Source of the DNA: Nitrospirota bacterium
GTDB lineage: Bacteria; Nitrospirota; Nitrospiria; 2-01-FULL-66-17
Length of the DNA: 64,000 bases
Direction: 5' to 3'
Assembly: GCA_040757335.1 (NCBI GenBank)
Contig: JBFLXB010000013.1
Coordinates: 1-64,000 of the forward strand
Shown here: positions 6,435-61,406 of the stretch, piece after piece
How positions within the stretch are numbered: the first letter of the stretch is position 1
Layout of the letters: the number at the start of each line of letters is the position of its first letter
Notes under the pieces: model-generated
Seen by the model: only the letters and a program-made list of their open reading frames with translations
Told to the model about the DNA's origin: nothing
Databases searched by the model: none
Program-made: the position numbers and the translations under genes

Positions 6435-6556
6435 CAGCCGCCGATAACGGGCCATCTGCTGCGTTGTCACTTCGGCCTCGCGTCCTCACGTACGAACCAG
6501 TACGCTCCGGCGCGAGGCCTCGTTCCGCCTTGCATCTCGCCCATTCTCGGCGGCTG
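6435..6556 (+). repeat. Long palindromic repeat, copy A
   Basis: Outer arms CAGCCGCCGATAACGGGC and the complement of GCCCATTCTCGGCGGCTG pair with two mismatches. Inside lies the shared core: CCATCTGCTGCGTTG, then CCTCACGTACG, CAGTACGCTCCGG and CCTTGCATCTCG. It begins 15 bases after the rpe stop and is in forward orientation relative to rpe. See the finding on the six-copy family. Confidence 0.8.
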
Positions 6557-6579
6557 GGACACCACATCAAGCTCCGTTC

Positions 6580-7533
6580 GTGATCGATCTAGCTACTGCT
6601 AAAGCGATGACCGATAGGTTCGACCTACCGTCGCCGCGCCGTGTGACGCCCGTGGCGGGCGGGGTGATCAACCGGTCGTACCTGATCGAGTTGGATGACG
6701 GCGCGCTGTGGGTTTGTCGCGTGGATGTGGAGGGCGGGCGCGGCAAGCTCGCTCACGAAGCGGCCGTGTATCGTTGGTTATGGGAGCGCGCGCCCGGGTT
6801 GCCTATCGCCACGGCGTACCACGTTGACCCGGCGAGGGACATCATCCCCCACGAGTACGCGCTGCTTCCCCGGCTGCCGGGCGCGAATCTGGGCGCGGAT
6901 ATCGAGTATCTTCCCGAGGCAGTGCGCGAGCCGCTGTTGGAACAGGTGGGCGCGTTGCTGCGCCGGCTGCACGAGCTGATGGATGCGGACGGGGGACTGA
7001 TCGACCTCCATCACCGTGGCCAGCCGTGGCGGGTCTTTGTCAACGAATGGTTTGCCAACATGCTCGCCCGTTGCGAGGCGCGGTTGGGCTACGCGCCGCC
7101 GTGGGCTGAACGCGCTCGCGCATGGATGGAGGAGCGAATCGAGCTCGTGCCGGAGGCTCCTTCACGCGTGTTCCTGCACGGCGACTTTCACTTCGGGAAC
7201 CTGCAATACGAGCTGCTGCTGACTCCGCGGGTATCCGGCTGTTTTGATCTTGAGTGGGGGTGGTCAGGTCACGCCGCGTGTGATCTGCTCCACTTGCACG
7301 AGGCGGCGACGCGGTACCCCGAATACCGAGAACCGTTGCTGGCAGGATACGGCGTGCCCTCGTGGCCTCCCGAACTTACCGTGTATCGACTCATTCAATC
7401 GATCAGCGTGCTCGGCGCGGCGGTGGCGGGAGGTTCCGATCCCTTGTGGGATCTGATGGGATGGCACGGCGCGGTGATCGAGAACGTGTTGCGGGACCGT
7501 CAGCCTTTCACGGGATTGCTGCGGAGCGGCTGA
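6580..7533 (+). CDS. Aminoglycoside/choline-type phosphotransferase
   Basis: A 317-residue kinase of the APH/homoserine-kinase-II fold. The N-terminal lobe has a Gly-rich turn (VAGGVINRSYLIEL) and a conserved Glu (HEAAVYRWL). The C-lobe has the catalytic Brenner box FLHGDFHFGNL (His, Asp, Asn) near residue 202 and the metal-binding FDLEWG near residue 222. The substrate cannot be told from sequence; sugar, amino-alcohol or antibiotic are all possible. The frame opens at GTG 6580, with ATG 6607 as an alternative. It stands alone between palindromic repeat A and a minus-strand gene. Confidence 0.8.
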   Translation: MIDLATAKAMTDRFDLPSPRRVTPVAGGVINRSYLIELDDGALWVCRVDVEGGRGKLAHEAAVYRWLWERAPGLPIATAYHVDPARDIIPHEYALLPRLPGANLGADIEYLPEAVREPLLEQVGALLRRLHELMDADGGLIDLHHRGQPWRVFVNEWFANMLARCEARLGYAPPWAERARAWMEERIELVPEAPSRVFLHGDFHFGNLQYELLLTPRVSGCFDLEWGWSGHAACDLLHLHEAATRYPEYREPLLAGYGVPSWPPELTVYRLIQSISVLGAAVAGGSDPLWDLMGWHGAVIENVLRDRQPFTGLLRSG

Positions 7534-7546
7534 TCCGTTCCCGATC

Positions 7547-8023
7547 TCAACTGCGCGCTGAATCCAGCCGGCGCCACGTGATTTCAACGCTTCCGGACAC
7601 AAATCCGGTGTCGTCGCCGACCAGCTCGGTGCGACACTGGATCAGGCGGATACGAATCTCGTACGGATACCCCGGCAGGGGCAGTCTCCGGTCGTCCGGG
7701 AAATACCGTTCACGGCTGAGCCAGGCGAGCACGTCGCTGGGGTGGGGTCCACCGGAGGGAATGCCCCGTCGCAGGACGTTCGTCCCGACTGACCCGGCTC
7801 CGCGCTCAACGACCTGCACTTCCCATCCGAAATGCGCGACGCGGGAATGGGCGATCCGCACGACGCGCAGCAGCAGCGTTGAGTCGATCTCCCGCGTGAT
7901 GGTTTCGCGCGGATCGGTGACGTCGAAGCGAAGGGTTTGCGCGGGCAGCGAATCGGCGGAGAGCGCAGCGGCTCCCGGCGTGATCCACCAGACGATCCAC
8001 ACCTGGAGCAGGTACCGCGCCAT
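7547..8023 (-). CDS. Hypothetical exported protein
   Basis: A 158-residue protein. From the ATG at 8023 it starts MARYLLQVWIVWWITPGAAALSA, a plausible signal peptide, so this start is preferred over 8041. The mature part is beta-rich, with several alternating charged and hydrophobic strands (TLRFDVTDPRETITREI, SGSVEITWRRL), and no recognised domain. It is convergent with the phosphotransferase and divergent from cstA. A periplasmic role is inferred only from the signal. Confidence 0.6.
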   Translation of the reverse strand: MARYLLQVWIVWWITPGAAALSADSLPAQTLRFDVTDPRETITREIDSTLLLRVVRIAHSRVAHFGWEVQVVERGAGSVGTNVLRRGIPSGGPHPSDVLAWLSRERYFPDDRRLPLPGYPYEIRIRLIQCRTELVGDDTGFVSGSVEITWRRLDSARS

Positions 8024-8124
8024 TCGTCCTCGGTCGAGCAAGGCTCTCGCGATGATCGGTGCAGGAGCACGCTAACACGGGCTCACAAAACAGGTCAAAC
8101 CGAAGCAGTGCGCGGGTCTTTGCT

Positions 8125-8154
8125 TTGACTTTGCGGCAGAGCCTCCGCTACCAT
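8125..8154 (+). promoter_or_regulatory. cstA promoter
   Basis: TTGACT, 18 bases, TACCAT. The predicted start point is a few bases before the cstA ATG at 8167. This fits a sigma-70-type promoter and supports the short cstA start. Confidence 0.5.
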
Positions 8155-8166
8155 TTCCCACTTACC

Positions 8167-10119
8167 ATGAACGCCGTCTGGAAGCATGTGATTTGGGCCG
8201 GGATTGCCCTGCTGTGCGCGGTTGCGTTTGCGATCGTGACCGGGCTCGTTCGCCCGGAGGAAAACGTCAACGCGCTCTGGCTGGTCGTAGCTGCGGCGTG
8301 TTTCTACGTGCTCGCGTTCCGGTTTTACGGGCGCTTTCTCGGGCGGGTGGTGGGTCTGGATGACCGCCGCATCACCCCCGCGCATCGCCTCAACGATGGA
8401 AAGAACTTTCACCCCACGCACCGATGGGTGCTCTTCGGCCACCACTTTGCCGCGATCGCGGGCGCCGGCCCGTTGCTGGGGCCGGTGCTCGCGGCGCAGT
8501 TCGGGTATCTCCCGGGATTCCTTTGGCTCGTGATCGGCGCAGTCGTTGCGGGCGCGGTGCAGGACTTCGTGATCCTGGTCGGGTCGCTTCGCCGCAACGG
8601 TCGGTCGCTCCCGCAAATCGCGCGCGACGAAGTGGGGCCGGTCACGGGGCTGGCCACCGCGATCGCCGTATTGTTCATCGTGATCGTGGCTCTGGCCGGG
8701 CTGGGCCTTGCCGTGGTCAACGCACTCGCGCACAACCCCTGGGGCACGTTCACGCTGGCCATGACCATACCCATCGCGCTTTTGATGGGGCTGTACCTTC
8801 AGCGCTGGCGGCCCGGTCGGGTCGGCGAGGTCTCGCTGATCGGCGTGGGGTTGCTGCTTACCGCGGTCGTGATCGGCCGTCCGGTGGCCGCCACGCCGCT
8901 GGGCGCGGTATTCGACCTGGGACGCGAGAGCCTGGTCTGGTGGCTCGCGGGGTATGGATTTCTCGCATCGGTGCTGCCGGTCTGGCTCTTGTTGGCGCCG
9001 CGCGACTACCTGTCGTCGTTCATGAAAGTCGGCGTGGTGGTCTTACTGGCCGGCGGCGTGATCGCGATGGCGCCGGAACTCCAGATGCCGGCGACCACGG
9101 CGTTCATCGGGGGCGGCGGGCCGATCATTCCCGGCACGCTGTTTCCCTTCGTCTTCATCACCATCGCGTGCGGTGCGATCTCCGGGTTTCACTCCCTGGT
9201 GTGTTCCGGCACCACGCCCAAAATGATCGAGCGCGAAGGGCACGCGTTGGTGGGCTACGGCGCGATGCTGATGGAGAGCTTCGTCGGCGTGATGGCGCTG
9301 ATCGCCGCGACGATTCTCATCCCCGGCGACTATTTCGCGATCAACACCACCTTGCCGCCGGACCAACTCACCGCGTTGGGGTTCCCCCCCGTGGAGGTCG
9401 GAGAGCTCTCGCGCATGGTCGAGACCAACGTGGTGGGCCGACCCGGGGGCGCGGTGTCGCTCGCGGTCGGGATGGCCTCTATTTTCGGGTCGATTCCGGG
9501 TCTGCGGGGCCTGATCGCGTACTGGTATCAATTCGCGTTGTTGTTCGAGGCGCTGTTTATCCTGACCACGATCGACGCGGGCACGCGCGTGGCTCGGTAC
9601 TTGATCCAGGAACTGGGAAGCGCCGTGTCCCCACGCGTCGCGGATCTGAACTGGATGCCCGGCGTGCTCGCCTCGAGCGCGGTGGTCGTGGCGGCGTGGG
9701 GGTACTTGATCGCCAACGGAACGATTTCCACGGTGTGGCCCATGTTCGGTGCCGCGAACCAATTGCTGGGGACACTGGCGCTCTGCGTGGGCACCACGCT
9801 GCTGATCAAGATGGGGCGAGCACGCTTCCTGTGGGTGACGGTCGTCCCGATGTTGTTTGTGGGGACCATTACGCTCACCGCGTCCTGGCAGCTCTTCGGG
9901 TTTTTTTCCGCCAAGGCGGCCGCTGCGACCGTGACGAAAGACGCGTTCAACCTCCGTCTCGACGCGTGGCTGGTCGCGCTGGTGGCCATCCTCGCGGTGG
10001 TGATTCTCAGCGACTCCGTGAGGCAGTGGTACGGGTATCTCGTCCAGAAGCGCCCCTACCGGTCCACGGAAGTGAGCGGGCCGGAGGTGTACTCGCTTCC
10101 CACCGACCCCGGCTGTTAG
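8167..10119 (+). CDS. cstA: CstA-family carbon starvation transporter
   Basis: A 650-residue polytopic inner-membrane protein of the CstA family, whose known members take up peptides or pyruvate. Hydrophobic helices run through the whole length. Family landmarks include FHPTHRWVLFGHHFAAIAGAGPLLGPVLAAQ-like segments near residue 78-105 and GFHSLVCSGTTPKMI near residue 340. The ATG at 8167 is chosen: the frame is open to 8059, but the extra 36 residues are basic and non-hydrophobic, and a promoter lies between. A palindromic repeat starts directly after its stop. Confidence 0.93.
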   Translation: MNAVWKHVIWAGIALLCAVAFAIVTGLVRPEENVNALWLVVAAACFYVLAFRFYGRFLGRVVGLDDRRITPAHRLNDGKNFHPTHRWVLFGHHFAAIAGAGPLLGPVLAAQFGYLPGFLWLVIGAVVAGAVQDFVILVGSLRRNGRSLPQIARDEVGPVTGLATAIAVLFIVIVALAGLGLAVVNALAHNPWGTFTLAMTIPIALLMGLYLQRWRPGRVGEVSLIGVGLLLTAVVIGRPVAATPLGAVFDLGRESLVWWLAGYGFLASVLPVWLLLAPRDYLSSFMKVGVVVLLAGGVIAMAPELQMPATTAFIGGGGPIIPGTLFPFVFITIACGAISGFHSLVCSGTTPKMIEREGHALVGYGAMLMESFVGVMALIAATILIPGDYFAINTTLPPDQLTALGFPPVEVGELSRMVETNVVGRPGGAVSLAVGMASIFGSIPGLRGLIAYWYQFALLFEALFILTTIDAGTRVARYLIQELGSAVSPRVADLNWMPGVLASSAVVVAAWGYLIANGTISTVWPMFGAANQLLGTLALCVGTTLLIKMGRARFLWVTVVPMLFVGTITLTASWQLFGFFSAKAAAATVTKDAFNLRLDAWLVALVAILAVVILSDSVRQWYGYLVQKRPYRSTEVSGPEVYSLPTDPGC

Positions 10120-10243
10120 GAGCCCGTCCATGAATGGCCATCTGCGGCGTTGGCGCTGCGCTTCCGCTCCTCACGTACTCACCACGTACGCTCCGGTGCG
10201 GTTCTCGCGCCGCCTTGCATCTGGCGCATTCCTGAACGGGCTC
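10120..10243 (+). repeat. Long palindromic repeat, copy B
   Basis: It starts at the base after the cstA stop codon. The outer arms are GAGCCCGTCCATGAATGG and the complement of CATTCCTGAACGGGCTC. The core reads CCATCTGCGGCGTTGG, CTCACGTACTCACCACGTACG, CTCCGGTGCGG and CCGCCTTGCATCTGGC. The apical hairpin has changed on both sides (CGTACT...ACGTACG) relative to other copies. It is in forward orientation relative to cstA. Confidence 0.85.
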
Positions 10244-10266
10244 CCGCCCGACAGGACGCGGGCGGG
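10243..10266. terminator. GC-rich hairpin before der
   Basis: CCCGCCCG and CGGGCGGG form a perfect 8-bp stem around ACAGGACG. It follows repeat B immediately and precedes TATAAA at 10269. No T-run follows, so it could be part of a 5' leader or a weak terminator. Confidence 0.45.
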
Positions 10267-10293
10267 ACTATAAAGCTGCGACGGGGGCCTACC

Positions 10294-11652
10294 ATGTACC
10301 CGCGACCATTTGTTGCTGTGATCGGGCGGCCCAACGTGGGGAAGTCCACGTTGTTCAACCGCTTGATCGGCCGTCGGGTGGCGGTGGTACAGGATGAGCC
10401 GGGCGTGACGCGCGACCGCAACTATTACGCGGTGGAGTATTGCGGCACGCCGTTCACGCTCGTCGATACCGGGGGGATGACCGGAGCCCCCCCCGCCCGT
10501 CCCTCCCCTCCTCGGGGGGAGGGTGACGGTGAACGGCTCCTTGCAGACGTTCAGCGTCAAACCGACCTCGCGATTCAGGAAGCCGATCGCATCATTTACT
10601 TGATGGACGGCCGTGACGGATTGCTGCCCATTGATCGAGAGATCGCCGAGCGCCTGCGCAAGATCGACAAGCCCGTGTGGTATGCCGTCAACAAAATCGA
10701 CGGCCCCAAACACGAGGCCAAGGTCATGGAGTTCTACCAGCTCGGCGTCGAGCGTCTTTTCCCGATCTCCGCGGAACACGGATACGGCGTGGATGAGCTG
10801 CTGGAGGCCGCGATCCCGAGGGCAGAACCGAGGACGGAACCGACGGAGACCGGGACGATCCCGAGGGTCGTGGTCCTCGGCCGGCCCAACGCCGGCAAAT
10901 CCACGTTGATCAACACCTTGCTCGGTGAAGAACGGTTGGTCACCAGCGACGTGCCGGGAACGACGCGCGACACCATCGACACGCTGGTCGAGCGGGGAGG
11001 AAAGACCTATCGCTTCGTGGACACCGCGGGCCTGCGTCGCCGCGGTAAAGTCAGCCGCGGGGTTGAACATTTCAGCGCAGAGCGCGCCCGCGATGCCCTA
11101 GCTAGGGCGGACATCGCGCTGATTTTGATTGACGCGACTGAAGGTGTCGTCGACCAGGAAACCAAAATCGTCGGGGAAGTGTTGGCTGCTGGCCGGGCCT
11201 GCGCGCTGGTGATCAACAAGTGGGATCTCAAGCCGCCGGGCGAGACCGAGCGAACCGCATTCCTGACCGAAGTCACGCGCAGATTCGCCTTTGTCGAACA
11301 CGCGCCGGTGTTGTTCATCTCGGCGCTCAAAGGCGCGGGCGTCGGGAAAATCTTTTCGATCATCGATGACGTGATGACGGCCTACACCACGCGGGTCAGC
11401 ACTGGGGACCTCAACCGGTTCTTCGAGGGCGTGGTCCGCGACCACCCGCCGCCGTTGTCCAAGGGGCGGCCAGTTCGTCTCAACTACATCACGCAGGCCG
11501 GTGTGAAGCCGCCGACATTCGTGGTCTTCGCCAGCGATGCCAAAGCCGTAGCGACCCACTACCGCCGCTACCTGGAAAACGCCCTCCGCCAGCGCTTCGG
11601 CTTCCGCGGCACGCCGATCCGCATCGTCGTCCGCTCCAAACGCAGCCGCTAG
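10294..11652 (+). CDS. der: GTPase Der (EngA), ribosome assembly
   Basis: A double-GTPase that assists 50S ribosome assembly. G domain 1 has GRPNVGKSTLFN (residues 9-20), DTGG and NKID; G domain 2 has GRPNAGKSTLIN (about 193-204), DTAGLRRRGKV and NKWD; a KH-like domain closes the protein (about 365-452). The frame is open to 10150, but the ATG at 10294 precedes the P-loop at the usual distance. Oddity: straight after DTGG in domain 1 the protein carries a Pro/Arg-rich insert (GAPPARPSPPRGEGDGE). It is encoded by a palindromic CCCTCCCC/GGGGAGGG hairpin, in a loop that contacts nucleotide. Confidence 0.95.
   Translation: MYPRPFVAVIGRPNVGKSTLFNRLIGRRVAVVQDEPGVTRDRNYYAVEYCGTPFTLVDTGGMTGAPPARPSPPRGEGDGERLLADVQRQTDLAIQEADRIIYLMDGRDGLLPIDREIAERLRKIDKPVWYAVNKIDGPKHEAKVMEFYQLGVERLFPISAEHGYGVDELLEAAIPRAEPRTEPTETGTIPRVVVLGRPNAGKSTLINTLLGEERLVTSDVPGTTRDTIDTLVERGGKTYRFVDTAGLRRRGKVSRGVEHFSAERARDALARADIALILIDATEGVVDQETKIVGEVLAAGRACALVINKWDLKPPGETERTAFLTEVTRRFAFVEHAPVLFISALKGAGVGKIFSIIDDVMTAYTTRVSTGDLNRFFEGVVRDHPPPLSKGRPVRLNYITQAGVKPPTFVVFASDAKAVATHYRRYLENALRQRFGFRGTPIRIVVRSKRSR
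10501..10522 (+). repeat. Palindromic insert inside der coding sequence
   Basis: CCCTCCCC and GGGGAGGG form a stem around a short loop, within the switch-II region of G domain 1. The sequence resembles short intergenic CCCTC-palindromes common in bacteria. It keeps the reading frame, so it reads as an in-frame insertion that was tolerated. Confidence 0.5.
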
Positions 11653-11909
11653 CAGACTGCTGAAAAAGTCCGTCTGCGGCGTTGCTTCGCCATCTGCAAG
11701 GTAGCGACCATTTGCATGCACCTTCGGTGCTGGCAGATTCGCGGTCGTCGGAAACCGCACCGTGTCCCTTGAAGGGACACGGATCCGATCCGCGTCGAAG
11801 ACGCGACCATGCGGTTCGCCGTTTTCGGCAAATCCTCACGTACGACCCAGTACGCTCCGGTTTCCTCCTCCCTGCGGCCTTGCAGCCAGAACTTTTTGAG
11901 CAGTCTGCT
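11651..11909 (+). repeat. Long palindromic repeat, copy C
   Basis: It overlaps the last two bases of the der stop codon. The outer arms are AGCAGACTGCTGAAAAAGTC and the complement of GAACTTTTTGAGCAGTCTGC, with few mismatches. The core (CGTCTGCGGCGTTG, CCTCACGTACG, CAGTACGCTCCGG, CTGCGGCCTTGCAGC) is longer than in other copies. The left half carries about 130 extra bases with small hairpins, for example ACCTTCGGTGCT and GTGTCCCTTGAAGGGACAC. It is in forward orientation relative to der. Confidence 0.82.
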
Positions 11910-11966
11910 GCACCCTTCGACATTTTCGGAATCCTGCCAGAAGATCTATTCTGTGGGGTGTTTAAA

Positions 11967-11988
11967 CGCCCCGGAATTCCACGGGGCG
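11967..11988 (-). terminator. Hairpin between repeats C and D
   Basis: CGCCCCG and CGGGGCG form a 7-bp stem around GAATTCCA. On the minus strand the stem is followed by TTTAAAC, so it could terminate transcription of the minus-strand vWA gene. The 11653-12114 gap otherwise holds only repeats C and D. Confidence 0.45.
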
Positions 11989-12112
11989 AGCCCGTTCAGA
12001 AGCGGGCCAGATGCAAGGCGGCGTCGCCCGCCCGGACCGCAGCGTACTGGGTGCGTACGTGAGGACCGGACGGGCGACGCCAACGCCGCAGATGGCCCCT
12101 TATGGACGGGCT
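11989..12112 (-). repeat. Long palindromic repeat, copy D
   Basis: Same family, reverse orientation on the plus strand. Its outer arms (AGCCCGTTCAGAAGCGGGCC and the complement of GGCCCCTTATGGACGGGCT) resemble those of copy B. Core motifs in reverse are CCAGATGCAAGGCGG, CGTACGTGAGG and CGCCGCAGATGG. It ends two bases before the stop codon of the minus-strand vWA gene at 12115-12117, so relative to that gene it is again in the forward sense. Confidence 0.85.
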
Positions 12113-12114
12113 AA

Positions 12115-12882
12115 CTAGGCGGAGGTGGAGCGGACGCGATAGTCCACATTATCCCGCACCCACTTCCACAGCCGCTCCTGCTCCGCAAGATCGGCATCCG
12201 GCGCCATCTGGTCCTTCCAGCCTTTCATGACCTCGGCTTCCACGGTCCACATGCGCACGCGCTGCCGCGGCACCAGTTTACGCCAATAGTCTCCGACTTT
12301 GGGGCTGGCGTAGGCGAGGCGGAGCGTGAGGTTGCGCGTCAGATAGTCCAGCGAACTCAGATCAAGCGTGGTATAGGCTGCCTGGCCCTTCTGGCCGTTC
12401 GCATCCGGTATCCCGTCGCTGATCACCACCAGGCTGATCGGTGCCAACACCAAATTCCGTTCTTTGGAGATCCGAGCCACCTGTCGGAAAAACGCGTTGT
12501 AATCCGTCAACGTGTCAGTCGGGGGAAACCACGTCCGCAAATCGGCTTCGATCTGCTCCACGGTCTTGCCGGAGAAATCGTGGATGGGGTGGAACGCTTT
12601 GGGTTCGTCCGCGCTCTGCCCGCCGATCGATCCCACGAACAGCTCTCGCGGCACGGCGAGACCGCCCAGCCCATTGAGGTGGCCGTAGAGATAGTGGGCC
12701 AGGAACGTCAGGGAGTCATCGTAGTACCCGGAGCTCCCGAACGATCCGCTGGTATCCACGGCCACAAACATGGTAAGCCGTGGCTTCTGCGAATCGGACC
12801 GGGGCGCACACGCTGCGAGACTGCTCCCCACGATGAGGGTTGCCATTAACCAGGTTGCGCACAATCGAGTTCGCAGCGTCAT
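12115..12882 (-). CDS. VWA-domain lipoprotein
   Basis: A 255-residue protein. From the ATG at 12882 it has a lipoprotein signal with lipobox SLAAC near residue 20-24, then a von Willebrand factor A fold. The metal-site motif DTSGSFG (DxSxS) lies at about residue 40, and VISDGIPD at the far side of the fold. The C-terminal part is Trp-rich (LWKWVRDNVDY). Likely anchored to a membrane and binding a protein partner through the MIDAS metal. Its start overlaps the stop of the upstream membrane gene (ATGA), so the two form a translationally coupled pair; function unknown. Confidence 0.8.
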   Translation of the reverse strand: MTLRTRLCATWLMATLIVGSSLAACAPRSDSQKPRLTMFVAVDTSGSFGSSGYYDDSLTFLAHYLYGHLNGLGGLAVPRELFVGSIGGQSADEPKAFHPIHDFSGKTVEQIEADLRTWFPPTDTLTDYNAFFRQVARISKERNLVLAPISLVVISDGIPDANGQKGQAAYTTLDLSSLDYLTRNLTLRLAYASPKVGDYWRKLVPRQRVRMWTVEAEVMKGWKDQMAPDADLAEQERLWKWVRDNVDYRVRSTSA

Positions 12883-14111
12883 GGCATCACCTTTTTGGGT
12901 TGGAGCTGAATCGCACCCAATGCCTGCCGCGTGGCCATGACCTCCTTCAGGGTCCTGAACGGCAGACTGAAGATCGGCCGGGAGGTCACGAGGATGAGGG
13001 AGAAGTTGACCATCGCCCCCAACACGTGGAGCGCCGGTAACGCGAGGAACTCCAGCATCTCGTCGCTCTTCTCGTGCAACCAAGTGATCTCGCGCTTGAA
13101 GTCCGCGATGGGCTCCTGCCACCACGGGGCCGTATCCGCGGCCGCCACAGGGGCGGCCTGTTGCGGATCCACCAGCGGTCGGCGCGAAATGAACGCCAGG
13201 AGCGGCGGGGTCCCGAACTGAGCGAACAGGAACCACGTCATCCCGCGGATACCGAGCCAACCAAAGGTGGCCAACGCGAGCGTCAGGCCGATGCCCATGC
13301 GGAATTCCTCGCTGGTCTGTTGGGCGATCCACGGCGTGACCGCGTCCACCAACTCGCGGTAAAGGAACATCACCTCGAAGAACATGACAAACAGCTCGAC
13401 CACGATCATCTGCGCCAGGAACTTCATCTCGCGCGCCTTGACCGCATCGATCAGGGCCTGCACGCAGGCAAAACTACCCGCGATGAGCATAAACAGAAAC
13501 AGCCACAACACCGGTCCCATCAGCGGGGGCGTGTCCGCACCGACCAAATCGGCGATCACCTCGGACACCGTGGGAAACAACGTATAGGTAAAGATCGTGG
13601 TCTCCAGCGCGCACCAGAAGAGGAGCATGACGAACGCGATCCACGGTACGCCTGGCCTAAAATAGCTCTCCGTCATCTTGCCGGTCATGGTAAACGGCAG
13701 CAGGATAATTTGGCGCACGGACTCCGCCAGCATCTTGAGGGCCAACCGAACCAGCGTGAAGCCCCATCCGATGAGCACGGTGGCGGCTCGGATGGTTCCC
13801 ACCCAGAACAGCCACACCGCTCGGGCGCCGTCCCACCAACCCAGCGCCAAGGCGGAGAAAAAGTTCACGCGGTTGGAGCGAAACGGGACGGTGTACACGG
13901 CCAACAAGGTGCACCACACGGCCGTCGCCCACAGCAGGACGGGTAGCAGCAGGAACGCAAACTTGGCGGCAGCGGCCCAGCCCGAGTCCGAGTAGCTAAA
14001 GAACGTGAGCAAGACGTCTTGCATTCCGGGGATCCACGAAATCGGAACCAAAAGGACTTCCGCCACGCCCCGCCATTGTTCCGGAACCATGTTCACGATC
14101 TGTTCAAACAT
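12879..14111 (-). CDS. Polytopic membrane protein, partner of VWA lipoprotein
   Basis: About 410 residues. The ATG at 14111 is chosen because GGGAGG precedes it; the upstream frame is basic and proline-rich. Eight or so hydrophobic segments are seen, such as FAFLLLPVLLWATAVWCTLLAVY, VLWLFLFMLIAGSFACVQALI and ELFVMFFEVMFLY. They are separated by short loops and followed by a Trp-rich soluble region (TAPWWQEPIADFKREITWLHEKSDEM). No recognised family. It overlaps the VWA lipoprotein gene by four bases, suggesting the two products act together at the inner membrane. Confidence 0.72.
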   Translation of the reverse strand: MFEQIVNMVPEQWRGVAEVLLVPISWIPGMQDVLLTFFSYSDSGWAAAAKFAFLLLPVLLWATAVWCTLLAVYTVPFRSNRVNFFSALALGWWDGARAVWLFWVGTIRAATVLIGWGFTLVRLALKMLAESVRQIILLPFTMTGKMTESYFRPGVPWIAFVMLLFWCALETTIFTYTLFPTVSEVIADLVGADTPPLMGPVLWLFLFMLIAGSFACVQALIDAVKAREMKFLAQMIVVELFVMFFEVMFLYRELVDAVTPWIAQQTSEEFRMGIGLTLALATFGWLGIRGMTWFLFAQFGTPPLLAFISRRPLVDPQQAAPVAAADTAPWWQEPIADFKREITWLHEKSDEMLEFLALPALHVLGAMVNFSLILVTSRPIFSLPFRTLKEVMATRQALGAIQLQPKKVMP

Positions 14112-14402
14112 GTCGACCTCCCTCCCTCGCTTGCGCAGCCGAACGGAGGCGCGAAGTCCCGCGCCGAGGTTCGGAGACGCCTTTGCTCCTTCGTTCTCTC
14201 CCGCCGGTTCCCGTCGCCGGGGTCGGAAAGTGTCCATTCCCGACCACTTCTCACGTGGCGCCGGGCGACCCGCCGTGCGCCGCCAGATAAAGGGGCTTCC
14301 GCGTTTCCGCCCCCAAAACAGCGTGGGGGAAGGTAGCACGGAACCGCCAGAGGTCAAGGACGGAATTTTGTGCCGTGGGAAAACCCCATGCCCGCCGATC
14401 CC

Positions 14403-30130: not shown

Positions 30131-33118
30131 TTACTGGTGGGCCAGACGCAAGGTCGCACCAGTCCCTGCGTTGAAGAACGTGTAGTTGGTCCCGCTGCCG
30201 CTGGTCACGTCACAGGGGTTCGCGCCCGCGCAGACCGAGCTCGCCGTCGAGTAGTGGCCCGCCGCGTCCGCGCCCTGCACGTTGGGTGCCCAGGTGTTCC
30301 CGACCGCATGAACCGTCACATTGGCTTCCACCGAGACGCGCACGCCCGTGGTCGTCCCCAGGATGGTGTTGCCGCCGGGACTGCTCTGTGTGCCGAGGTT
30401 GAGAGGCTCGGTACCGCCGGCATCGCCCTGGAGTACCAAGGCATCGCTGCCCGAGAGGGCGGCGTTGCGGGCTGTCAGGGTGTAGCTGTTCTCCGGGATA
30501 CCGGAATCTTTCAGCAATTGTATGCCCTTCTGCGCGCCGCCGGCGACCGTTCCCCCGAGGATGACGACCCCGCCGCCGTTGTTGAGACTGATGCCGCCGA
30601 GCGCATTGCCGCTGATCGTGCTGTTCGTCAGGACGACCCCGGGACGAGCATAGCCGTTGGCCGTGGAGTCAAAGCCGATCTGTCCCGCCTCGATCCCGAA
30701 GCGGCCGTGGCCGGTGATCTGGCTGTTGATGACTTCGAGCAGCGGCAGGCCCTCGCGCAGTTGGACACCGCCGCCGTTGCAGTTGGCGATGACGGAGTCC
30801 TGGATCTTGACGTAGGGGTTGAGAACCGGGCCTGCCGCATTGCGATCGACCGCCAGACAGGTCACGCTAAGCGCGCCGGCGAGATTGACCTCCACGTTGG
30901 TCAACGTGACCGTGCTGTCGACGTTGCCGCTGATGTACAGCGCGCCCCCGCCGCCGACCCAGGCATTGCTCGTGTTCGTCAGCTTGAAATTGGCGAGCGA
31001 CAGCTTGGCGCCATCGAACGTGAAGGCGCCCCCGGTGCCGGTCGTGCCGTCGAGCACGCCGCCGTTGACGGTCAACTCCGCGGTGCCCGTCACCAACGCA
31101 AACCCGGTCAGCGCGCCGGGGGTGAGCGCGTAGTTATGCGTCGGCACGCCGTTGGGGTCGACCAGCACCTTGGCCGTGCCGCTGGCCTCGATGCCGTTGC
31201 TCAACGTCGAGACGCCAAGTTTGGTCCAGCGCGGACCCGAGATCACGGTGGTGCCGCCGCTGGCGAGGATGCGGCCTTGGGAGGAGACGTCGAAGTCCAC
31301 GCCGGTGATGCTGCCGCCGTTGGGGAATTGCAGCGTGAAGCCGATCGTCGCCGCGCCGGCATTGACGGCCTTGATCGCCACCCCCGCCGGAACGGTCCGA
31401 CCGGCAAAGATGTCCAGGCCCCCTTCCGTCGCCGCGGTGTAGCTGCCGTCCTGCAACCACACGGTGCCGCCGGCGCCGACCGTGGTGAAGGCCTTGTTGA
31501 GCGTCTTGAACGGCGCGCTACTGGTGCCGGCGTTGGTGTCAAGCCCCGTGGCCGGGTTGACATAGGCTTCGAGCGCCGAGGCGGTGGTGACCGTGACATT
31601 GACCGCGCTGCTGGTCGCGCTGTTGGATGCCGCGTCCGTGGCCCTGGCGGTGAACGACTGCACGCCGATGTCGGCGTCGACGAACGCCGCGGTGGTGAAT
31701 TCGTACGGCGCGGTCGCGTCCTCGCCGATCTTGCCGCCGTTCCTGAAGAACTCGACCAGCATGACCCCGAGGTTGTCGCTCGAGGTAGCCGTCAGCGTCA
31801 CGGTCTCACCGACCGTCGCGCTGGTGGCGGACGCGGCCAGGCTGATACTCGGCGCCTGGGTGTCGGTCACGGTCACCGGCACGCTGTTGCTGGTGGCATT
31901 GTTGTTGGCCGCGTCTTTGGCTGTGGCGGTGAAGGTCTGGGCGCCCAGATCGGCGCCGGTGAACGCCGCGGTGGTCAGTTCGTACGGCGCGGTCGCGTCC
32001 TCGCCGATCTTCACCGCGTTCTTGAAAAACTCGACCAGGGTCACGCCGACATCGTCGCTCGCGGTCGCGGTCAGCGTCACGGTTTGTCCGACGGGAACCG
32101 TGTTCGCCGACGCGGCGAGACTGACGGTCGGCGGCGTGCTGTCGGACGGCGGAGTCGGAGGGATGTTGACCACCAGATCGAGTTCGTTGCCCAGCGCGAC
32201 GACCGCGGCATGGTTGCCGTTACCGTCAACGGCCCACCCGCGGTACCGGTAGGTCGCGTTATCATCGGACGAAGCGAAATTGCGCGTGGTTCCTGCCGAC
32301 AGGATGGGCTCAGGCGTTGACCCGTCCGGCGCGGTGGTGCTGGCGATCACGGTGGTGGCAACCACGCTGTTGCCGATGATCTTCTGTTCGATCAAGTCGA
32401 CCCGCTTGACCGACTTGTTGTCCGTGGCGCGCGCGTGCACATAGACCCCGCCCGGCGCGGTGACGCTGTTGCTCGCGAGGGTGACGGACACCGTCGGCGC
32501 GGTTTCATCAAACAGCACGCCGAACGTGCCCGGTGACAAGTCGCTGATGGTGCATGTGATGTCGAGCCCGTTGTGCGCGCAATCGGGCAGCGCAAGGATG
32601 GCGGCCGGGGTGATTTTGACGATCTTCGGCGATTCGATGCATGGATCGAAGCCCCCTACCGCTACAAGGAAGTCTTGCCCCAGAGCGTCGTAGTAGTCGA
32701 TATCGCCGTCGCCGTCGACATCGCAGTCCGCGAAGTGATTCGGTTGGTGTTTGGAGAGACGCGCCATGTCGGCCTGCGCGGCACTCGACTTCTGGTTGGT
32801 GTCCGGCAGGGTGATCGAAATTGTTGCATCGGTCAACAGCGGGCCGCCGTTGCCGGTCAATTGGTAGACGCTCCCGGGCACGATCACCACGTCACCGGGC
32901 AGCGCCGCGTTCGGCGCCGGGTTCAGCGTGACGCTCATGGATTGCGCCGCGGCGCCGGCCGGCACCACGAGCTGCGCCTGGCCATCGGTGGACGCCACGG
33001 TGCCGCCCGCCGTGGTGATATTGGCGGCCGGGGCAGGCGTTTCGTTTCCGCCTCCGCCGGAACAGGCTGCCAGTAGAAGCATGATCGGAAGCAATACTCG
33101 TTGCCAGGAAACCTTCAT
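30131..33118 (-). CDS. Large lipoprotein with Ig-like repeats and beta-helix domain
   Basis: A 995-residue protein. ATG 33118 (GGAGGAGTAGGGA upstream) begins a lipoprotein signal with lipobox LLAAC and a Gly-rich tether (SGGGGNE). The domain order is: beta-domain; EF-hand/dockerin-like loop DVDGDGDIDYYDA (about residue 132-144); two near-identical Ig-like repeats (about 326-520), each with a segment like VEFFKNAVKIGEDATAPYEL; then a DUF1565-type right-handed parallel beta-helix (YVNPATGLDTNAGTSSAPFK to the C-terminus). Probably an outer-surface adhesin or carbohydrate-binding protein. Transcribed from a long structured leader. Confidence 0.85.
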   Translation of the reverse strand: MKVSWQRVLLPIMLLLAACSGGGGNETPAPAANITTAGGTVASTDGQAQLVVPAGAAAQSMSVTLNPAPNAALPGDVVIVPGSVYQLTGNGGPLLTDATISITLPDTNQKSSAAQADMARLSKHQPNHFADCDVDGDGDIDYYDALGQDFLVAVGGFDPCIESPKIVKITPAAILALPDCAHNGLDITCTISDLSPGTFGVLFDETAPTVSVTLASNSVTAPGGVYVHARATDNKSVKRVDLIEQKIIGNSVVATTVIASTTAPDGSTPEPILSAGTTRNFASSDDNATYRYRGWAVDGNGNHAAVVALGNELDLVVNIPPTPPSDSTPPTVSLAASANTVPVGQTVTLTATASDDVGVTLVEFFKNAVKIGEDATAPYELTTAAFTGADLGAQTFTATAKDAANNNATSNSVPVTVTDTQAPSISLAASATSATVGETVTLTATSSDNLGVMLVEFFRNGGKIGEDATAPYEFTTAAFVDADIGVQSFTARATDAASNSATSSAVNVTVTTASALEAYVNPATGLDTNAGTSSAPFKTLNKAFTTVGAGGTVWLQDGSYTAATEGGLDIFAGRTVPAGVAIKAVNAGAATIGFTLQFPNGGSITGVDFDVSSQGRILASGGTTVISGPRWTKLGVSTLSNGIEASGTAKVLVDPNGVPTHNYALTPGALTGFALVTGTAELTVNGGVLDGTTGTGGAFTFDGAKLSLANFKLTNTSNAWVGGGGALYISGNVDSTVTLTNVEVNLAGALSVTCLAVDRNAAGPVLNPYVKIQDSVIANCNGGGVQLREGLPLLEVINSQITGHGRFGIEAGQIGFDSTANGYARPGVVLTNSTISGNALGGISLNNGGGVVILGGTVAGGAQKGIQLLKDSGIPENSYTLTARNAALSGSDALVLQGDAGGTEPLNLGTQSSPGGNTILGTTTGVRVSVEANVTVHAVGNTWAPNVQGADAAGHYSTASSVCAGANPCDVTSGSGTNYTFFNAGTGATLRLAHQ
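31572..32143 (-). repeat. Tandem Ig-module repeat within lipoprotein gene
   Basis: Two direct repeats of about 285 bases encode the consecutive Ig-like modules. Long runs are the same at about 31700-31750 and 31985-32035, including codons for GEDATAPYE. This marks a recent duplication and a likely site for copy-number change between strains. Confidence 0.7.
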
Positions 33119-33322
33119 ATTCCCTACTCCTCCGTTGATCAATCTACGGCCACGGTGATCGCGTCGCCGGGGACCAGGCCCTGAAAACCGCAGCGGGCTG
33201 GTCCGCTGAGTCAGCCATTCTTAACATGGGCGACTCCGCGCAGCCAATCCCTCCTTACGGAGGGGTTCAGCCGTGAACGCGCTTCCGGCAGGTGGTGAGG
33301 ACCCGGCTCGGGCGTAGATGGA
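33119..33322 (-). promoter_or_regulatory. Structured leader upstream of Ig/beta-helix gene
   Basis: About 200 bases between the MalT-like regulator stop and the lipoprotein start. On the minus strand it can form CCCTCC-GTAA-GGAGGG (33249-33264, a GNRA tetraloop), then a stem with arms GGACCAG and CTGGTCC. It fits no riboswitch class I can name. It could be a regulatory leader or the terminator of another transcript. Confidence 0.4.
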
Positions 33323-38962: not shown

Positions 38963-38973
38963 GGGTGCGCGTC

Positions 38974-39651
38974 ATGCTCGGAAAGCAGGGCAACGGTAAA
39001 ATAGAGCCCCCCCGAAGGAATCATTCTCCGACCCCACTTTTCTTTACACTCCAGCACAACGCCCGCATCCCTGCCGCCAATGCCATGGGAGTTCCGGGGC
39101 CGGGCGGGCCGGTGCCGGGGCCGAACAAGAGCCCACATCTGGGGTGGTCGGATTTTCCGGCCGGCACCAAGTCGTTCGCGATCATCTGTCGCGACGTGGA
39201 TGCGCCCTCCAGGCCAGATGACGCCAACAAGAGCGATCGCGTAGTGCGGTACGATTTCCCGCGCGCGGATTTTTATCACTGGGTGCTGGTGGATATCCCG
39301 TCCACTATCACGGGTCTCGTCGAAGGCCGGGATTCGGACGGGGTGGTGCCCAAGGGCAAACCGCTGGGCAAGACCGAGTATGGTGTGCGCGGGATCAACA
39401 GTTATCGCGAGTGGTTTGGAAGTGATCCGGCCATGGGAGGGGACTACGGTGGCTACGACGGGCCGTGGCCGCCGTTCAATGACGAGCGCGTGCATCACTA
39501 CCATTTCACGGTGTACGCGCTGGATGTCGCGTCGCTCGGGCTGCCGCAGCGATTTGCCGGACCGGACGCGCTCCGGGCCATGCAAGGCCACATCCTGGAT
39601 CAGGCCACCATCATCGGAACGTACGCGCTCAATCCCACGGCTCGGGAGTAG
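38974..39651 (+). CDS. PEBP-family protein without signal peptide
   Basis: A 225-residue phosphatidylethanolamine-binding-like protein. Landmarks are PHLGWSDFPAGTKSFAIICRDVDAP, DFYHWVLVDIPSTITGL and HHYHFTVYALDVASLGLP. It is longer than the exported paralogue at 21717 and lacks a signal, so it is likely cytoplasmic. ATG 38974 is used; GTG 38965 is possible. A long palindromic repeat begins at its stop codon. Confidence 0.85.
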   Translation: MLGKQGNGKIEPPRRNHSPTPLFFTLQHNARIPAANAMGVPGPGGPVPGPNKSPHLGWSDFPAGTKSFAIICRDVDAPSRPDDANKSDRVVRYDFPRADFYHWVLVDIPSTITGLVEGRDSDGVVPKGKPLGKTEYGVRGINSYREWFGSDPAMGGDYGGYDGPWPPFNDERVHHYHFTVYALDVASLGLPQRFAGPDALRAMQGHILDQATIIGTYALNPTARE

Positions 39652-39873
39652 CAGGTTGCTGAAAAAGTCCATCCGCTGCGTTCTGACTGAGGAGCCTCGG
39701 CCGCCTCACCGTCTCGGCGGCGCTCGTGGCTTGGCGCCACTTCTTCGTGGCGCCACTCGCCTCACGTACGACCGCAATCCCCCGGGAACGTTTCGTACCT
39801 CCAGGGAATTCCCAGTACGCTGCGGTTTCCTCCTCGCTGCGGCCTTGCAGCTGGAGCTTTTTGAGCAACCTGC
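39651..39873 (+). repeat. Long palindromic repeat, copy E
   Basis: It begins on the last base of the PEBP stop codon. The outer arms are GCAGGTTGCTGAAAAAGTCC and the complement of GGAGCTTTTTGAGCAACCTGC. The core includes CCTCACGTACG, CAGTACGCTGCGG and CTGCGGCCTTGCAGC. The apical loop between CGTACG and CAGTACG is enlarged by about 40 bases (around 39773-39812). Forward orientation. The rest of the gap to 39985 holds no gene. Confidence 0.82.
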
Positions 39874-57586: not shown

Positions 57587-58584
57587 CGCTCGCGATCCTC
57601 GTCACCGCGATGATCGTGGCGATCATCGTGATTCTGGCGGGCAGCGCGCTTTTTACCAACGGCGTGGAATGGCTCGGCAAGAAGCTCGGGGTGTCCGATG
57701 GGGTGGTGGGCAGCGTGTTTGCGGGCGTGGGCACCGCGCTGCCCGAAACCGTGATCCCGATCATCGCGATCTTCTTTGGCGACGGCGAGGATCGGCAAGC
57801 GATCGGGATCGGGGCCATCCTGGGCGCTCCCTTCATGCTGAGCACGCTGACGCTCCCATTGCTCGGCGCGGGGCTCCTCGCCTTCGCGTTCTTTGGGCGT
57901 CGTCCCAACACGTTCAAACTCGACGCGGCGGCGGTCGCCATTGATTTGCGCTTTTTCCTCGCCGGGTACGCCGCGGCGATCGGCTCGGCCATGGTCGATT
58001 CCAGGGTCCTGCACGTGTTGGTGGCGGTCGGCTTGGTAGCGCTGTACCTGGTCTATTTGAAAACCATCGTGGGGCACGATGGCGAAAGTCATGGCGAGGC
58101 CTTGGCCCCGCTCTACCTGGCGCGCCGGCAGCCGAACCCGCCGACCGCGCTCATCGCCGTTCAGGTGCTCGCCGGGCTGGCCGTGATCATCGGCGGCGCG
58201 CACTTGTTCGTGGGGACGGTCCAATCCGTGGCCACGATAGCAGGCGTCTCTCCCCTGCTGTTGTCGCTGCTGATCACCCCGGTGGCGACCGAGCTGCCCG
58301 AAAAACTCAACAGCCTTATCTGGATTGCTCAAAAGAAAGACACCCTGGCGGTCGGGAACATCACGGGTGCGATGGTGTTCCAGGGCACGTTTCCGGTTGC
58401 CGTCGGACTGATCGGCACCCCGTGGCGCCTCGACACCTACGGGATGGTCAGCGCGTGGATCGCGTTGATCGCGGGCGCAGCCCTCTATGCCACGATCGCC
58501 ACGCGTCGCACGTGGCGCCCGGCCTACCTTGTTGCGGGTTCGCTGTTGTACCTGGGCTTCGGGGTCTACGTGGCCAATTGGTAA
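57583..58584 (+). CDS. Sodium/calcium exchanger-type (CaCA) membrane protein
   Basis: 333 residues with about ten TM helices in two repeats. The alpha-repeat motifs are GTALPETVIPIIAIFFG and TPVATELPEKLNSLIWIA, with the ion-binding Glu. It exchanges a divalent cation for Na+ or H+. Its ATG overlaps the larC stop (ATGA), so a link to nickel-cofactor biosynthesis, for example metal supply, is possible though speculative. Confidence 0.87.
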   Translation: MTLAILVTAMIVAIIVILAGSALFTNGVEWLGKKLGVSDGVVGSVFAGVGTALPETVIPIIAIFFGDGEDRQAIGIGAILGAPFMLSTLTLPLLGAGLLAFAFFGRRPNTFKLDAAAVAIDLRFFLAGYAAAIGSAMVDSRVLHVLVAVGLVALYLVYLKTIVGHDGESHGEALAPLYLARRQPNPPTALIAVQVLAGLAVIIGGAHLFVGTVQSVATIAGVSPLLLSLLITPVATELPEKLNSLIWIAQKKDTLAVGNITGAMVFQGTFPVAVGLIGTPWRLDTYGMVSAWIALIAGAALYATIATRRTWRPAYLVAGSLLYLGFGVYVANW

Positions 58585-58659
58585 CCCCGGAGGATACCGC
58601 GCTCGTCTCGCGTTTGGGGGCGGCGCAGTGGTAGAATTCGTCGGGCGGTAAGGTCAATC

Positions 58660-60429
58660 GTGCGGGACAGCGTACAAAGACGGATCGTGTTGTCGATCCT
58701 GATCGTGGGCGTGGCGTCGCTCCTGGTGGGGCTGTCCCTCGTCTACTTCATCGGCAAGTCCACGCTCAAACGCACGATCGGCGCCAACTTCGAGGAGTTG
58801 GCCGACGTGACCGCCAAAAAGCTCGATGAGTCGATCAATCACCACGTCGAACAAGCCGTGTTCCTGGCCGGTCTCAAGGAGGTGTTCGCCGTGGTCGAGC
58901 GCTCCAACGCGCGTCCTCCCTCGCCGGCGTTGGACGGACAGATCCAGAGCGACTGGCCTCAACTGGGTGCCGCGGATCGCGAAGTGTCGCAGGTCGTCGA
59001 GAACCCCGCCGCCGAGGCGTTTCGCGCATTCATGCTGATGGCGGGGCAACAGGCGCTCGACCATCCCACCCACGAGATCGTCTTGGCCGCCGACGCGCGC
59101 GGCCGCGTGGTGGCCGCGACGCGCAAACCTTCGGCGTCCGCCTACGGCGAAACCGCCTGGTGGCGGGAATCCTACGCCAACGGCCAGGGGCGCCTGTTCC
59201 TGAGCGACGTGTTGTTCGACGACAACCTCGGGCGGTACGTGTTTATCATCGCCACCCCGATCCGGCGCGACGGCCGCGTCGAAGGGGTGCTGGCCATGGT
59301 CCACGATGCGCGGGCCTTCTACCAATGGGTGACCTCGATCCAGGTCGGCCGAACCGATCATACGATGCTGGTGGCCTCCGACGGGACGCTGCTGTTCTGC
59401 CCGGTGTTTCCCATCAAGAGCCACACGTTGCACCCGACGCTGGTCGCGTCGGTGGTCAGGGGCGGGCGCGGGTGGGGTACCACCACCCACGACGTGCACT
59501 ACCCCGGCTCGGAAGCGATCAACGGCTTCGCCCCGGTCCGGGCGTCGACCATGCCGGGGACCAGCTTCGGCGGCAAGGTCTGGTACATCTTCACCAGTCA
59601 GGACCCCCGCGAGACCTACGGACCGGTCTACACGCTGTTGCTCTGGATCATCGCGTCGGGAGCGGCCGCGATCGGGTTGTTGATTCTCCTGGGGCTCGCG
59701 GCGGCCAAACGCATCGTCCGGCCCATTCAGATCGTGCAGGCCGGGGCGCAAGTGATTGGAAACGGCAATCTCAATCACCGCATCCACGTGGACACCGACG
59801 ATGAAATCGGCGTGCTGGCGAAGGGGATCAACGAGATGGCCGCCAAACTATCCACCTCGTACAACGAGCTGGAACGGATGGTGGAAGAACGCACGCGAGC
59901 GCTCGCGCAACGCACGAGTCAGCTCGAGCAGCGCAATCAGGAATTGTTCCTCCTGTACGCCATCGCGTCGTCGCTCAACAAAGCGCAGTCGCTCGACGAT
60001 GTGCTGGGTGAATTGCTGAACAAAGTGCTCGGTGGCGTGGAGGCGCACGCGGTGTTTATTGGATTGGCCGAACCCGACCGCGGCGTGACGCTCCACGGGC
60101 GGCCGCACGCGATCGCGGCGCAGGACGAGATGACCCACCTCGCGGAATCGGTCGTCCAGCAGGTGTTGGCCGCCGGCGATTTGGTCGTGGTGCCCGACAC
60201 CAGCCAAGACCTCGAGTATCACGCCTTCACCCGCCAAGCGAAGGCCTTGATCGGCATTCCGCTCCGCGCCAAAGACAAGACCGTGGGCGCCATCGTGCTG
60301 GCTTACCTGAAGCCGCGTGTTCCCACGCCCGAGGAACGGGAGTTCTTCGGCTCGATCGGCCATCAAGCGGGGGTGGTGGTGGAAAACGCCAGGCTCTTCG
60401 CCGTGTTCAAGAACCTCGCCAGCTCTTGA
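58660..60429 (+). CDS. Cache-HAMP-GAF sensor without output domain
   Basis: 589 residues: TM1 (RRIVLSILIVGVASLLVGLSLV), a large periplasmic double Cache domain (about 40-315), TM2 (LLLWIIASGAAAIGLLILLGLA), HAMP (IVRPIQIVQAGAQVIGNGNL to IGVLAKGINEMA), a coiled-coil (YNELERMVEERTRALAQRTS), and a GAF domain (about 440-580). No histidine-kinase, GGDEF, EAL or methyl-accepting domain follows. The next gene (rsmA) overlaps the stop, so there is no room for one. It may act with a separate partner. Confidence 0.85.
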   Translation: MRDSVQRRIVLSILIVGVASLLVGLSLVYFIGKSTLKRTIGANFEELADVTAKKLDESINHHVEQAVFLAGLKEVFAVVERSNARPPSPALDGQIQSDWPQLGAADREVSQVVENPAAEAFRAFMLMAGQQALDHPTHEIVLAADARGRVVAATRKPSASAYGETAWWRESYANGQGRLFLSDVLFDDNLGRYVFIIATPIRRDGRVEGVLAMVHDARAFYQWVTSIQVGRTDHTMLVASDGTLLFCPVFPIKSHTLHPTLVASVVRGGRGWGTTTHDVHYPGSEAINGFAPVRASTMPGTSFGGKVWYIFTSQDPRETYGPVYTLLLWIIASGAAAIGLLILLGLAAAKRIVRPIQIVQAGAQVIGNGNLNHRIHVDTDDEIGVLAKGINEMAAKLSTSYNELERMVEERTRALAQRTSQLEQRNQELFLLYAIASSLNKAQSLDDVLGELLNKVLGGVEAHAVFIGLAEPDRGVTLHGRPHAIAAQDEMTHLAESVVQQVLAAGDLVVVPDTSQDLEYHAFTRQAKALIGIPLRAKDKTVGAIVLAYLKPRVPTPEEREFFGSIGHQAGVVVENARLFAVFKNLASS

Positions 60430-61256
60430 TTGCTCCGGATCATCCGGTCGACATCTCCGCGGTGCACCCACCACTCCGTCCTCGCAAGTCCCTCGGACAG
60501 TGTTTTCTCACGGATCGCCGCATCGCGGAAAAAATCGTGGGCTTGGCCGACGTGACGCGCGAGGACCGCGTGGTGGAGATCGGTCCCGGGCGGGGGATCC
60601 TGACGCGACTGCTCGCCGAACGCGCGGGCGAACTGACCGCCGTCGAGTTGGACAGCCGTTGGCACGCGGCGTTGCAGGCCGAATTCGGACAGACCGCGCA
60701 CGTGCGAGTGGTGCACGCCGATGCGTTGACGTACCGATTCGAAGACCTGGCATCCCCGTTCAAGGTCGTCGCCAACCTGCCCTATTACCTGTCCACGCCG
60801 ATCTTGTTTCGACTGCTCGGGCTCCGTGGGCGGGTCGGCCTGATGGTGCTCATGCTGCAGCGGGAAGTGGTGGACCGTCTGGTGGCGCGACCGCACACGA
60901 AAGCCTACGGGGCGCTGTCCGTGATGGTGGCCTACGCGGCCGAAGTTCGGAAGGGTTTTACGGTCGCGCCGGGAAGTTTTCATCCACGACCGGCCGTGCA
61001 CTCGGCGGTGGTGACGATCGCGCCGCGGCCTTCGCCCGCCATTGCCGTGCGAGACGAGGCCGTGCTGATTCCCCTCGTGCGCGCCGCGTTCGCACACCGG
61101 CGCAAGATGCTGGCGAACGCGCTCAAGGACGAGGGATTCGACGCGGCCCGGCTTGAGGCGGCCCTGCGGAAAGCGGAGATCGACGGCACGCGGCGCGGCG
61201 AAACCCTCGACCTCGGGGAGTTCGGGCGTTTGGCCGACGCACTGGTCGAAGCCTAG
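60426..61256 (+). CDS. rsmA: 16S rRNA dimethyladenosine transferase RsmA (KsgA)
   Basis: Dimethylates two adjacent adenines (A1518/A1519) in 16S rRNA. A 276-residue protein with QCFLTDRRIAEKIV, EIGPGRGILTRLLA (SAM site), VELDSRW and the catalytic VVANLPYYLSTPILF (NLPY). The C-terminal domain has FHPRPAVHSAVVTI. It begins with a TTG at 60426 that overlaps the sensor stop (TTGA), so the start is inferred. The gene is followed by a palindromic repeat. Confidence 0.95.
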   Translation: MIAPDHPVDISAVHPPLRPRKSLGQCFLTDRRIAEKIVGLADVTREDRVVEIGPGRGILTRLLAERAGELTAVELDSRWHAALQAEFGQTAHVRVVHADALTYRFEDLASPFKVVANLPYYLSTPILFRLLGLRGRVGLMVLMLQREVVDRLVARPHTKAYGALSVMVAYAAEVRKGFTVAPGSFHPRPAVHSAVVTIAPRPSPAIAVRDEAVLIPLVRAAFAHRRKMLANALKDEGFDAARLEAALRKAEIDGTRRGETLDLGEFGRLADALVEA

Positions 61257-61278
61257 TCTCTCCGTCGGGAACGGAGGT

Positions 61279-61406
61279 GACGCCTGTTCAGGAACGTGCC
61301 AGATGCCAGGCGGAGCTGCGCGCCCGCACCGCAGCGTACTGTATGCGTACGTGAGGAGCGGACGCGCAGCGACAACGCCGCAGATGGCCGTTCCTGAACA
61401 GGCGTC
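61279..61406 (-). repeat. Long palindromic repeat, copy F
   Basis: The outer arms GACGCCTGTTCAGGAACG and the complement of CGTTCCTGAACAGGCGTC are a perfect inverted repeat. The core in reverse has CCAGATGCCAGGCGG, GCAGCGTACTG, CGTACGTGAGG and CGCCGCAGATGGC. It overlaps the first two bases of the stop codon (61405-61407) of the minus-strand HExxH protein gene, so relative to that gene it lies in the forward sense. Confidence 0.87.

Follow-up and report, generated by a model that had tools for sequence, protein, structure and literature searches.

The long palindromic repeats that follow genes in the 64-kb window (the whole stretch of DNA that was analysed) are probably, at roughly 60%, non-autonomous MITE-like elements aimed at CTAG/TAG and hence at stop codons, in which the hairpin outlasts a decaying 3' transposon end. 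They have the appearance of old and non-autonomous transposon offspring. The observation behind this reading, a lock of the repeats to stop codons in one orientation, is confirmed and is generalised here to the whole genome of the source, a groundwater bacterium of a Nitrospirota lineage (3.56 Mb).

Hairpin elements at stop codons

Six copies had been reported in the window by an earlier note, and all six are present and share one orientation relative to the gene upstream. On the plus strand, the element at 6435..6556 (class III arms, GCAGCCGCCGATAACGGGCC...) lies 14-15 nt downstream of the TAG of rpe (ribulose-phosphate 3-epimerase, 5754-6419, +), and that at 10120..10243 (class I arms, GAGCCCGTCC...GAACGGGCTC) is 0 nt from the TAG of cstA (8059-10119, +). 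The element at 11651..11909 (class II arms, CAGACTGCTGAAAAAGTCC...GAACTTTTTGAGCAGTCTG) overlaps the TAG of der (+, ending at 11652), and the one at 39651..39873 (class II arms, CAGGTTGCTGAAAAAGTCC...GAGCTTTTTGAGCAACCTG) overlaps the TAG at 39649-39651 of a PEBP-family gene (38965-39651, +). Two elements with class I arms are on the minus strand. One, at 11989..12112, is found 1-2 nt past the TAG of the minus-strand gene 12115-13332, and the other, at 61279..61406 (GACGCCTGTTCAGGAACGGCC...), overlaps the TGA of the minus-strand gene 61405-62115. All these stop contacts had been described correctly, and the gene calls for the six genes agree with the positions in the note. Four of the genes (rpe, cstA, der and the PEBP gene) have matching Pfam matches; the two on the minus strand have none. 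The element at 11651..11909 contains a nested insert in its 5' part, after which comes a degenerate 3' IS end (ATTTTCGGAATCCTG), and nested palindromic modules are carried by the element at 39651..39873. Three arm classes are therefore represented in the window (I at 10120, 11989 and 61279; III at 6435; II at 11651 and 39651, both with nested inserts). The sequence blocks said to be common to all copies do exist; they are not identical in every copy, as variants occur in copy 2 (CCTCACGTACT), copy 1 (CCATCTGCTGCG) and copies 3 and 5 (CCTTGCAGC). A separate feature of the window is a 279-nt tandem direct duplication (31573-32130, 75% identical) within the long minus-strand ORF 30131-33142.

Searched with a strict pattern for the core of the hairpin, the 3.56 Mb genome yields 70 copies. 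The covariance model R1, built from 20 copies, finds at least 150 at E < 2e-4, among them five of the six window copies (E 1e-10 to 1e-28). The sixth, at 39651, is a hairpin with inserts that is not among the 150 scored matches; its arms match class II. Since a further copy (L191:3489-3685, G000:C44) also falls outside the 150, this number is an undercount. Three contigs of the assembly (C59-C61 of G000; L254-L256), of 1.7-2.6 kb, consist entirely of N.

The flanks of 148 copies were used, with genes called by a home-made coding-potential caller, so individual gene boundaries may be in error. None of the 148 copies is located inside a called gene. A same-strand gene is found upstream of 112 of the 148, and in 102 of these its stop is within 14 nt of the first base of the element, with a sharp peak at 0. 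Expressed over the 146 copies compared with random expectation, 102 have their 5' end within 15 nt of a same-strand stop, while 30.8 are expected when both position and orientation are randomised within the same spacers (maximum 46 in 5000 trials) and 53 when orientation only is shuffled (maximum 71). The mirror arrangement, an opposite-strand stop just past the 3' end, is not enriched (24 observed, 18.6 expected), and the hairpin end faces a stop about 4-5 times as often as the other end does. Of 121 genes with a copy beside their stop, 78 (64%) use TAG, compared with 192 of 857 genes without a copy (22%), and for 10 copies in this genome the gene is terminated by a TGA within the 5' arm of the element. 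The same lock is present in two genomes of a sister genus (G001 and G002), where 28 of 40 and 26 of 35 strict copies follow a same-strand gene, nearly all of them a few nt from its stop. The earlier note had argued that random insertion would not produce such an arrangement, and had proposed a covariance model with a genome-wide tabulation of stop distance and strand as the check. The tabulation bears out the argument, with neither random placement nor equal orientations found in the genome. The lock is strong, though not absolute as first described, because about 30% of the genomic copies sit elsewhere or reversed.

Conserved hairpin core and transposon ends

The hairpin is 124 bp long and covaries strongly. 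In an alignment of 126 copies to the model, 96.2% of the cells are paired, against 82.4% after shuffling and 30-47% with slid partners; these figures are flattering, as the alignment was fitted to the tested structure. Two-sided changes occur in 23 of 30 pairs, and none of 500 shuffles attains any of the five measures. The centre of the hairpin is conserved and its ends are variable. The core has the form CTGCGGCGTTG ... CCTCACGTACG-loop-CAGTACGCTSCGG ... CCTTGC, with invariant positions, some of them unpaired, around an apical stem and internal loops. The class I 5' arm pairs with its internal partner in 93% of cells (83% shuffled). A match at 8 or more of 11 positions is seen for this internal partner in 85 of 96 copies, but for the outermost 3' transposon end in 12 of them (control 2). 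Thus, the hairpin is kept while the 3' end decays. Nested palindromic modules are also found inside the elements (CGGCCGCCTCACCGTCTCGGCGGC in 13 copies and GGAAGTCCCCGAAGGGGGC in 8, with a few also outside elements), including at 39700-39760 of the window and in many other copies of this genome, which makes the hairpins themselves mosaics.

Matches to the pattern and to R1 extend beyond this genome to genomes labelled Oligoflexia, Cyanobacteria, Bacillota, Gammaproteobacteria and Ca. Manganitrophus, which carry 2-24 copies each, with different arms; drafts labelled Nitrospirae also have the core with different arms. These are draft MAGs in small samples, in which binning errors are possible. 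In Oligoflexia the start of the model is preceded, at a distance of about 12-17 nt, by TAG or TAA. Copies in other genomes have the form TGA followed by GTGTAACCGTTCAG, or TAACTATTCAG, and a stop often stands just before them. A structured core kept in several phyla, with transposon ends that can be exchanged, suggests a structure that is recognised, as DNA or as RNA. One could suppose that this core is a previously unnamed element riding on many unrelated transposon-like ends, and that it is the core, and not the IS ends, which sets the stop position and the polarity, via a host factor or a strand-specific insertion step not yet described. We regard this as tentative and rather unlikely.

Two of the three arm classes can be connected with insertion sequences. 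An IS seen at two contig breaks has the class I arm sequence (GGAGCCTGTCC) as its end; the two occurrences are identical, and the contig stops about 122 nt away from each. The same end occurs at three places in another genome (G019), and in all of these positions it is preceded by CTA. The start of the ORF of this IS (MSKTYRPYEPDQ) matches genes annotated as IS1182 family, with E-values that are weak because the query has 20 residues. Two IS1182 relatives found in this way have GAGTCTG...CAGACTC ends with CTAG directly on both outer sides, and the relative from Halomonas carries DDE_Tnp_1 and DUF772. A different IS, likewise at two contig breaks, has an end that the class II arms (CAGGCTGCTGAAAAAGTCC) resemble; this IS begins with CAGGGTGCTGAAAAAGTC directly after CTAG or CTAA. 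Its ORF start, MRGSQEPQSGLFSYV, comes after this end, and only 17 residues of the ORF are in the assembly. The 23-nt class II end is 95-100% identical in relatives and matches 43 of 98 genomes, a sample biased by the CTAG in the query; in Nitrospiraceae it stands before a variant form of the hairpin core. The class III arms could not be matched to an IS. In this genome the putative transposases of classes I and II are known from ends and ORF starts only. A search with PF05598 for the resident ISs led to two unrelated IS genes whose ends differ, the bodies of the wanted ISs being absent from the assembly, and a search of NCBIfam with one of the two IS protein starts gave no match, the fragment being too short. 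The complete element had no match in plasmids. In viral contigs there was one isolated match.

Terminal inverted repeats are thus common to the elements of classes I and II and to resident ISs, with the 3' end mostly degenerate. In the 3' extensions of copies in this genome, the IS ends are matched at an offset of 26-29, above control. The complete copy L280 reads CTAG-CAGGCTGCTGAAAAAGTCC-hairpin-extension-TTTTTCAGCAGCCTG-CTAG. CTAG is clear on both sides in this copy, in a few copies of this genome and in three coreless MITEs; in most copies it is lost or unreadable. The coreless MITEs are about 140 bp long (L245, G000:C1 near 76490; L247, G000:C14 near 26950; L290, G000:C21:32677) and have class II-like ends, CTAG followed by CAGGCTGC(T/C)GAAAAAGCC on one side and GAGTTTTTCAGCACCCTG followed by CTAG on the other. 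They are nearly identical and therefore apparently recent, and two of the three are placed exactly at TAG stops, with the same end toward the stop.

Insertion behind stop codons and competing explanations

When gene order is compared with G001 and G002, the two genomes of the sister genus, about two dozen pairs of filled and empty sites emerge, the presence and absence of copies at orthologous loci being dispersed. The inserted length, as estimated from gap differences, is typically that of the hairpin plus about 28 nt. Proteins with and without a copy mostly end on the same residue, which indicates insertion behind the native stop. At L191 compared with L093, the insertion is at the last codon and the stop is supplied by the element; this empty site is also among those without CTAG. 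Where the filled gene has TAG, the orthologue without a copy has TAG in 6 of 16 cases (background 6 of 10). The sites turn over between genera, and at sites common to both genera the elements are unlike, no more similar than random pairs.

The four-base sequence CTAG contains the stop codon TAG. In the analysed DNA it is depleted about tenfold, and of its roughly 261 sites 52 serve as TAG stops. In the mechanism that we favour, the mobile unit would be a hairpin of about 125 bp with a 3' extension of about 28 bp, whose ends are those of ISs inserting at CTAG/YTAR (an IS1182-type IS for class I, a second IS for class II) and whose copies would be moved in trans by the transposases of these ISs. 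The copy of the target that remains upstream would end in TAG (or TAA). An insertion at the stop codon would leave the upstream protein intact, and one elsewhere in the gene would break it; with CTAG scarce in coding DNA, survivors would accumulate behind stops. After decay of the 3' end, the hairpin would be kept by selection, perhaps for a binder, or by homogenisation of the arms; the repeat would be a selfish element in a safe site. Several points count against this MITE model. A palindromic CTAG target predicts no polarity, yet the hairpin end is turned to the stop; some empty sites have no CTAG; and the bodies of both ISs are absent from the assembly. Nor does the model account for the hairpin core that several phyla have in common with different arms. 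By our estimate, a CTAG target with loss of in-gene insertions predicts about one third of the copies at stops, against the observed 70% in one polarity. Hence the target accounts for the type of site, and the rest calls for selection or some additional specificity. Replication direction would hardly supply it, as genes are probably too weakly co-oriented with replication.

A selected RNA element of the 3'-UTR would offer another source of position and polarity. Here the hairpin would be transcribed with the upstream gene and would terminate or protect the mRNA or stall the terminating ribosome, and selection after transposition would do the placing. The polarity with respect to the preceding gene, seen in three genomes, the hairpin kept while the 3' transposon end decays and the strong covariation are all in line with this, and hairpins (REPs) within 15 nt of the stop were reported to stall ribosomes in E. 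coli (PMC12306157). By this analogy, ribosome stalling by the present elements is possible. No T-run was seen by eye in the flanks 3' of the hairpin, and operon ends are not enriched: the next gene is co-directional for 80 of 102 genes with a copy against 405 of 481 without, and operon-like gaps make up 45% against 48%. With both features lacking, intrinsic terminators are unlikely. A pairing constraint at the mRNA level predicts an excess of sense-strand wobble pairs, and none was found in the variable pairs, where G.T and A.C cells number 48 and 64 outside two fixed wobble columns, and 11 and 49 in the outer arms (cells, not independent events). The turnover of sites between genera, with unlike elements at common sites, also speaks against an RNA function. 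At the gathering score, Rfam recognises only a tRNA in the window, and for copy 2 the search with E up to 1 gave one sub-threshold match (E 0.21). On balance we consider such an RNA element unlikely. The earlier interpretation as a whole is partly supported: its suggestion of a terminator, stability or boundary element at the mRNA 3' end gained no positive support, while its alternative, a mobile element that targets gene ends strand-specifically, is favoured by the transposon ends, the CTAG flanks, the empty sites and a polarity that survives the orientation shuffle.

Polarity would follow directly if the repeats were large relatives of GTAG-REPs, since a Y1 (HUH, RAYT-like) transposase would move a single-stranded hairpin and join its foot to TAG in a strand-specific insertion. 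The repeats do have TAG at the hairpin foot and a one-sided polarity, Y1 genes do occur in the genome, and flanking ORFs often take their TAG stop from a GTAG-REP (PMC3733652). Against this, a search of 15 Y1 loci with R1, eight of them in this genome, found a single element close to one of these loci, and other ends (GGGGTCAG) are present at the two loci of this genome that were read. A RAYT/REPtron linkage was rejected on these numbers. Furthermore, complete copies have a second end and CTAG on the far side, the 3' extension is included in the length inserted at empty sites, and instead of a short (20-40 bp) GTAG-tagged stem-loop there is a 124-bp hairpin with a tag that is mostly TAG, with no fixed G before it. 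We therefore hold a Y1 origin to be improbable. Several Y1 genes of the genome are TIRYT-like (L201, L204, L206-L209; contigs C34 and C4 of G000), and the copies on C4 have GGGGTCAGGTCTATTGAATTGA ends like the GGGGWSAS motif described for TIRYTs, as a second, unrelated short mobile family. It is very improbable that the repeats are attC-like recombination sites or gene cassettes, each having arrived with the gene that it follows. Such sites would share the position and polarity behind genes and the imperfect hairpin with conserved unpaired bases, but the copies are scattered singly after core genes (cstA, der, rpe) and not in arrays, conservation is in the centre of the hairpin and not at its ends, and the stretches that were read showed no cassette array beside an integrase gene. 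At empty sites the gene stays in place, so the hairpin was inserted and not the gene.

Relation to known systems

For a selfish element of the MITE-like kind, stop codons would be a near-ideal safe site, as the protein stays intact and the site is marked by CTAG, which is rare in coding DNA. With more than 100 gene ends filled in one polarity, this strategy becomes testable. In addition, a strong hairpin lies right at the stop of many genes, some of them core genes, in a position where hairpins reportedly affect ribosomes. We found no description of this element family in the literature on Nitrospira repeats, on ISs at stop codons and on IS1182/CTAG.

GTAG-REPs and REPtrons (PMC3733652) are similar as high-copy palindromes with TAG at the foot, which is often the stop codon of the flanking ORF. 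They are 20-40 bp long and tied to Y1 transposases, whereas the present elements have about 125 bp plus an extension, bear ends of DDE-type ISs and are not linked to Y1 genes. The RUP, Correia/NEMIS and ERIC MITEs (PMC2229807) are closer in size (about 100-160 bp), have a long stem-loop, a TA-containing target and terminal inverted repeats in common with resident ISs, and for ERIC an orientation-dependent effect on the upstream mRNA was reported (PMC2229807). The present elements differ from them in being locked to stops in one polarity, in having three outer-arm classes around one conserved core, and in holding a second copy of the end internally, which forms the hairpin. The class I ends and the CTAG flanks recall the IS1182 family (ISKpn6 type; IS1272, PMC5678879). 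IS1272 was reported to recognise and replace target stem-loops (PMC5678879); the elements described here encode nothing, and their CTAG flanks look like an ordinary short target. The IS5 of E. coli, reported between CTAA or CTAG sites (PMC11677980), shares these sites with the class II IS, of which 17 ORF residues are known here. The repeats are thus a MITE/REP-like family, set apart by their length, their IS1182-type ends, their polarity and their exchangeable arms around a conserved core.
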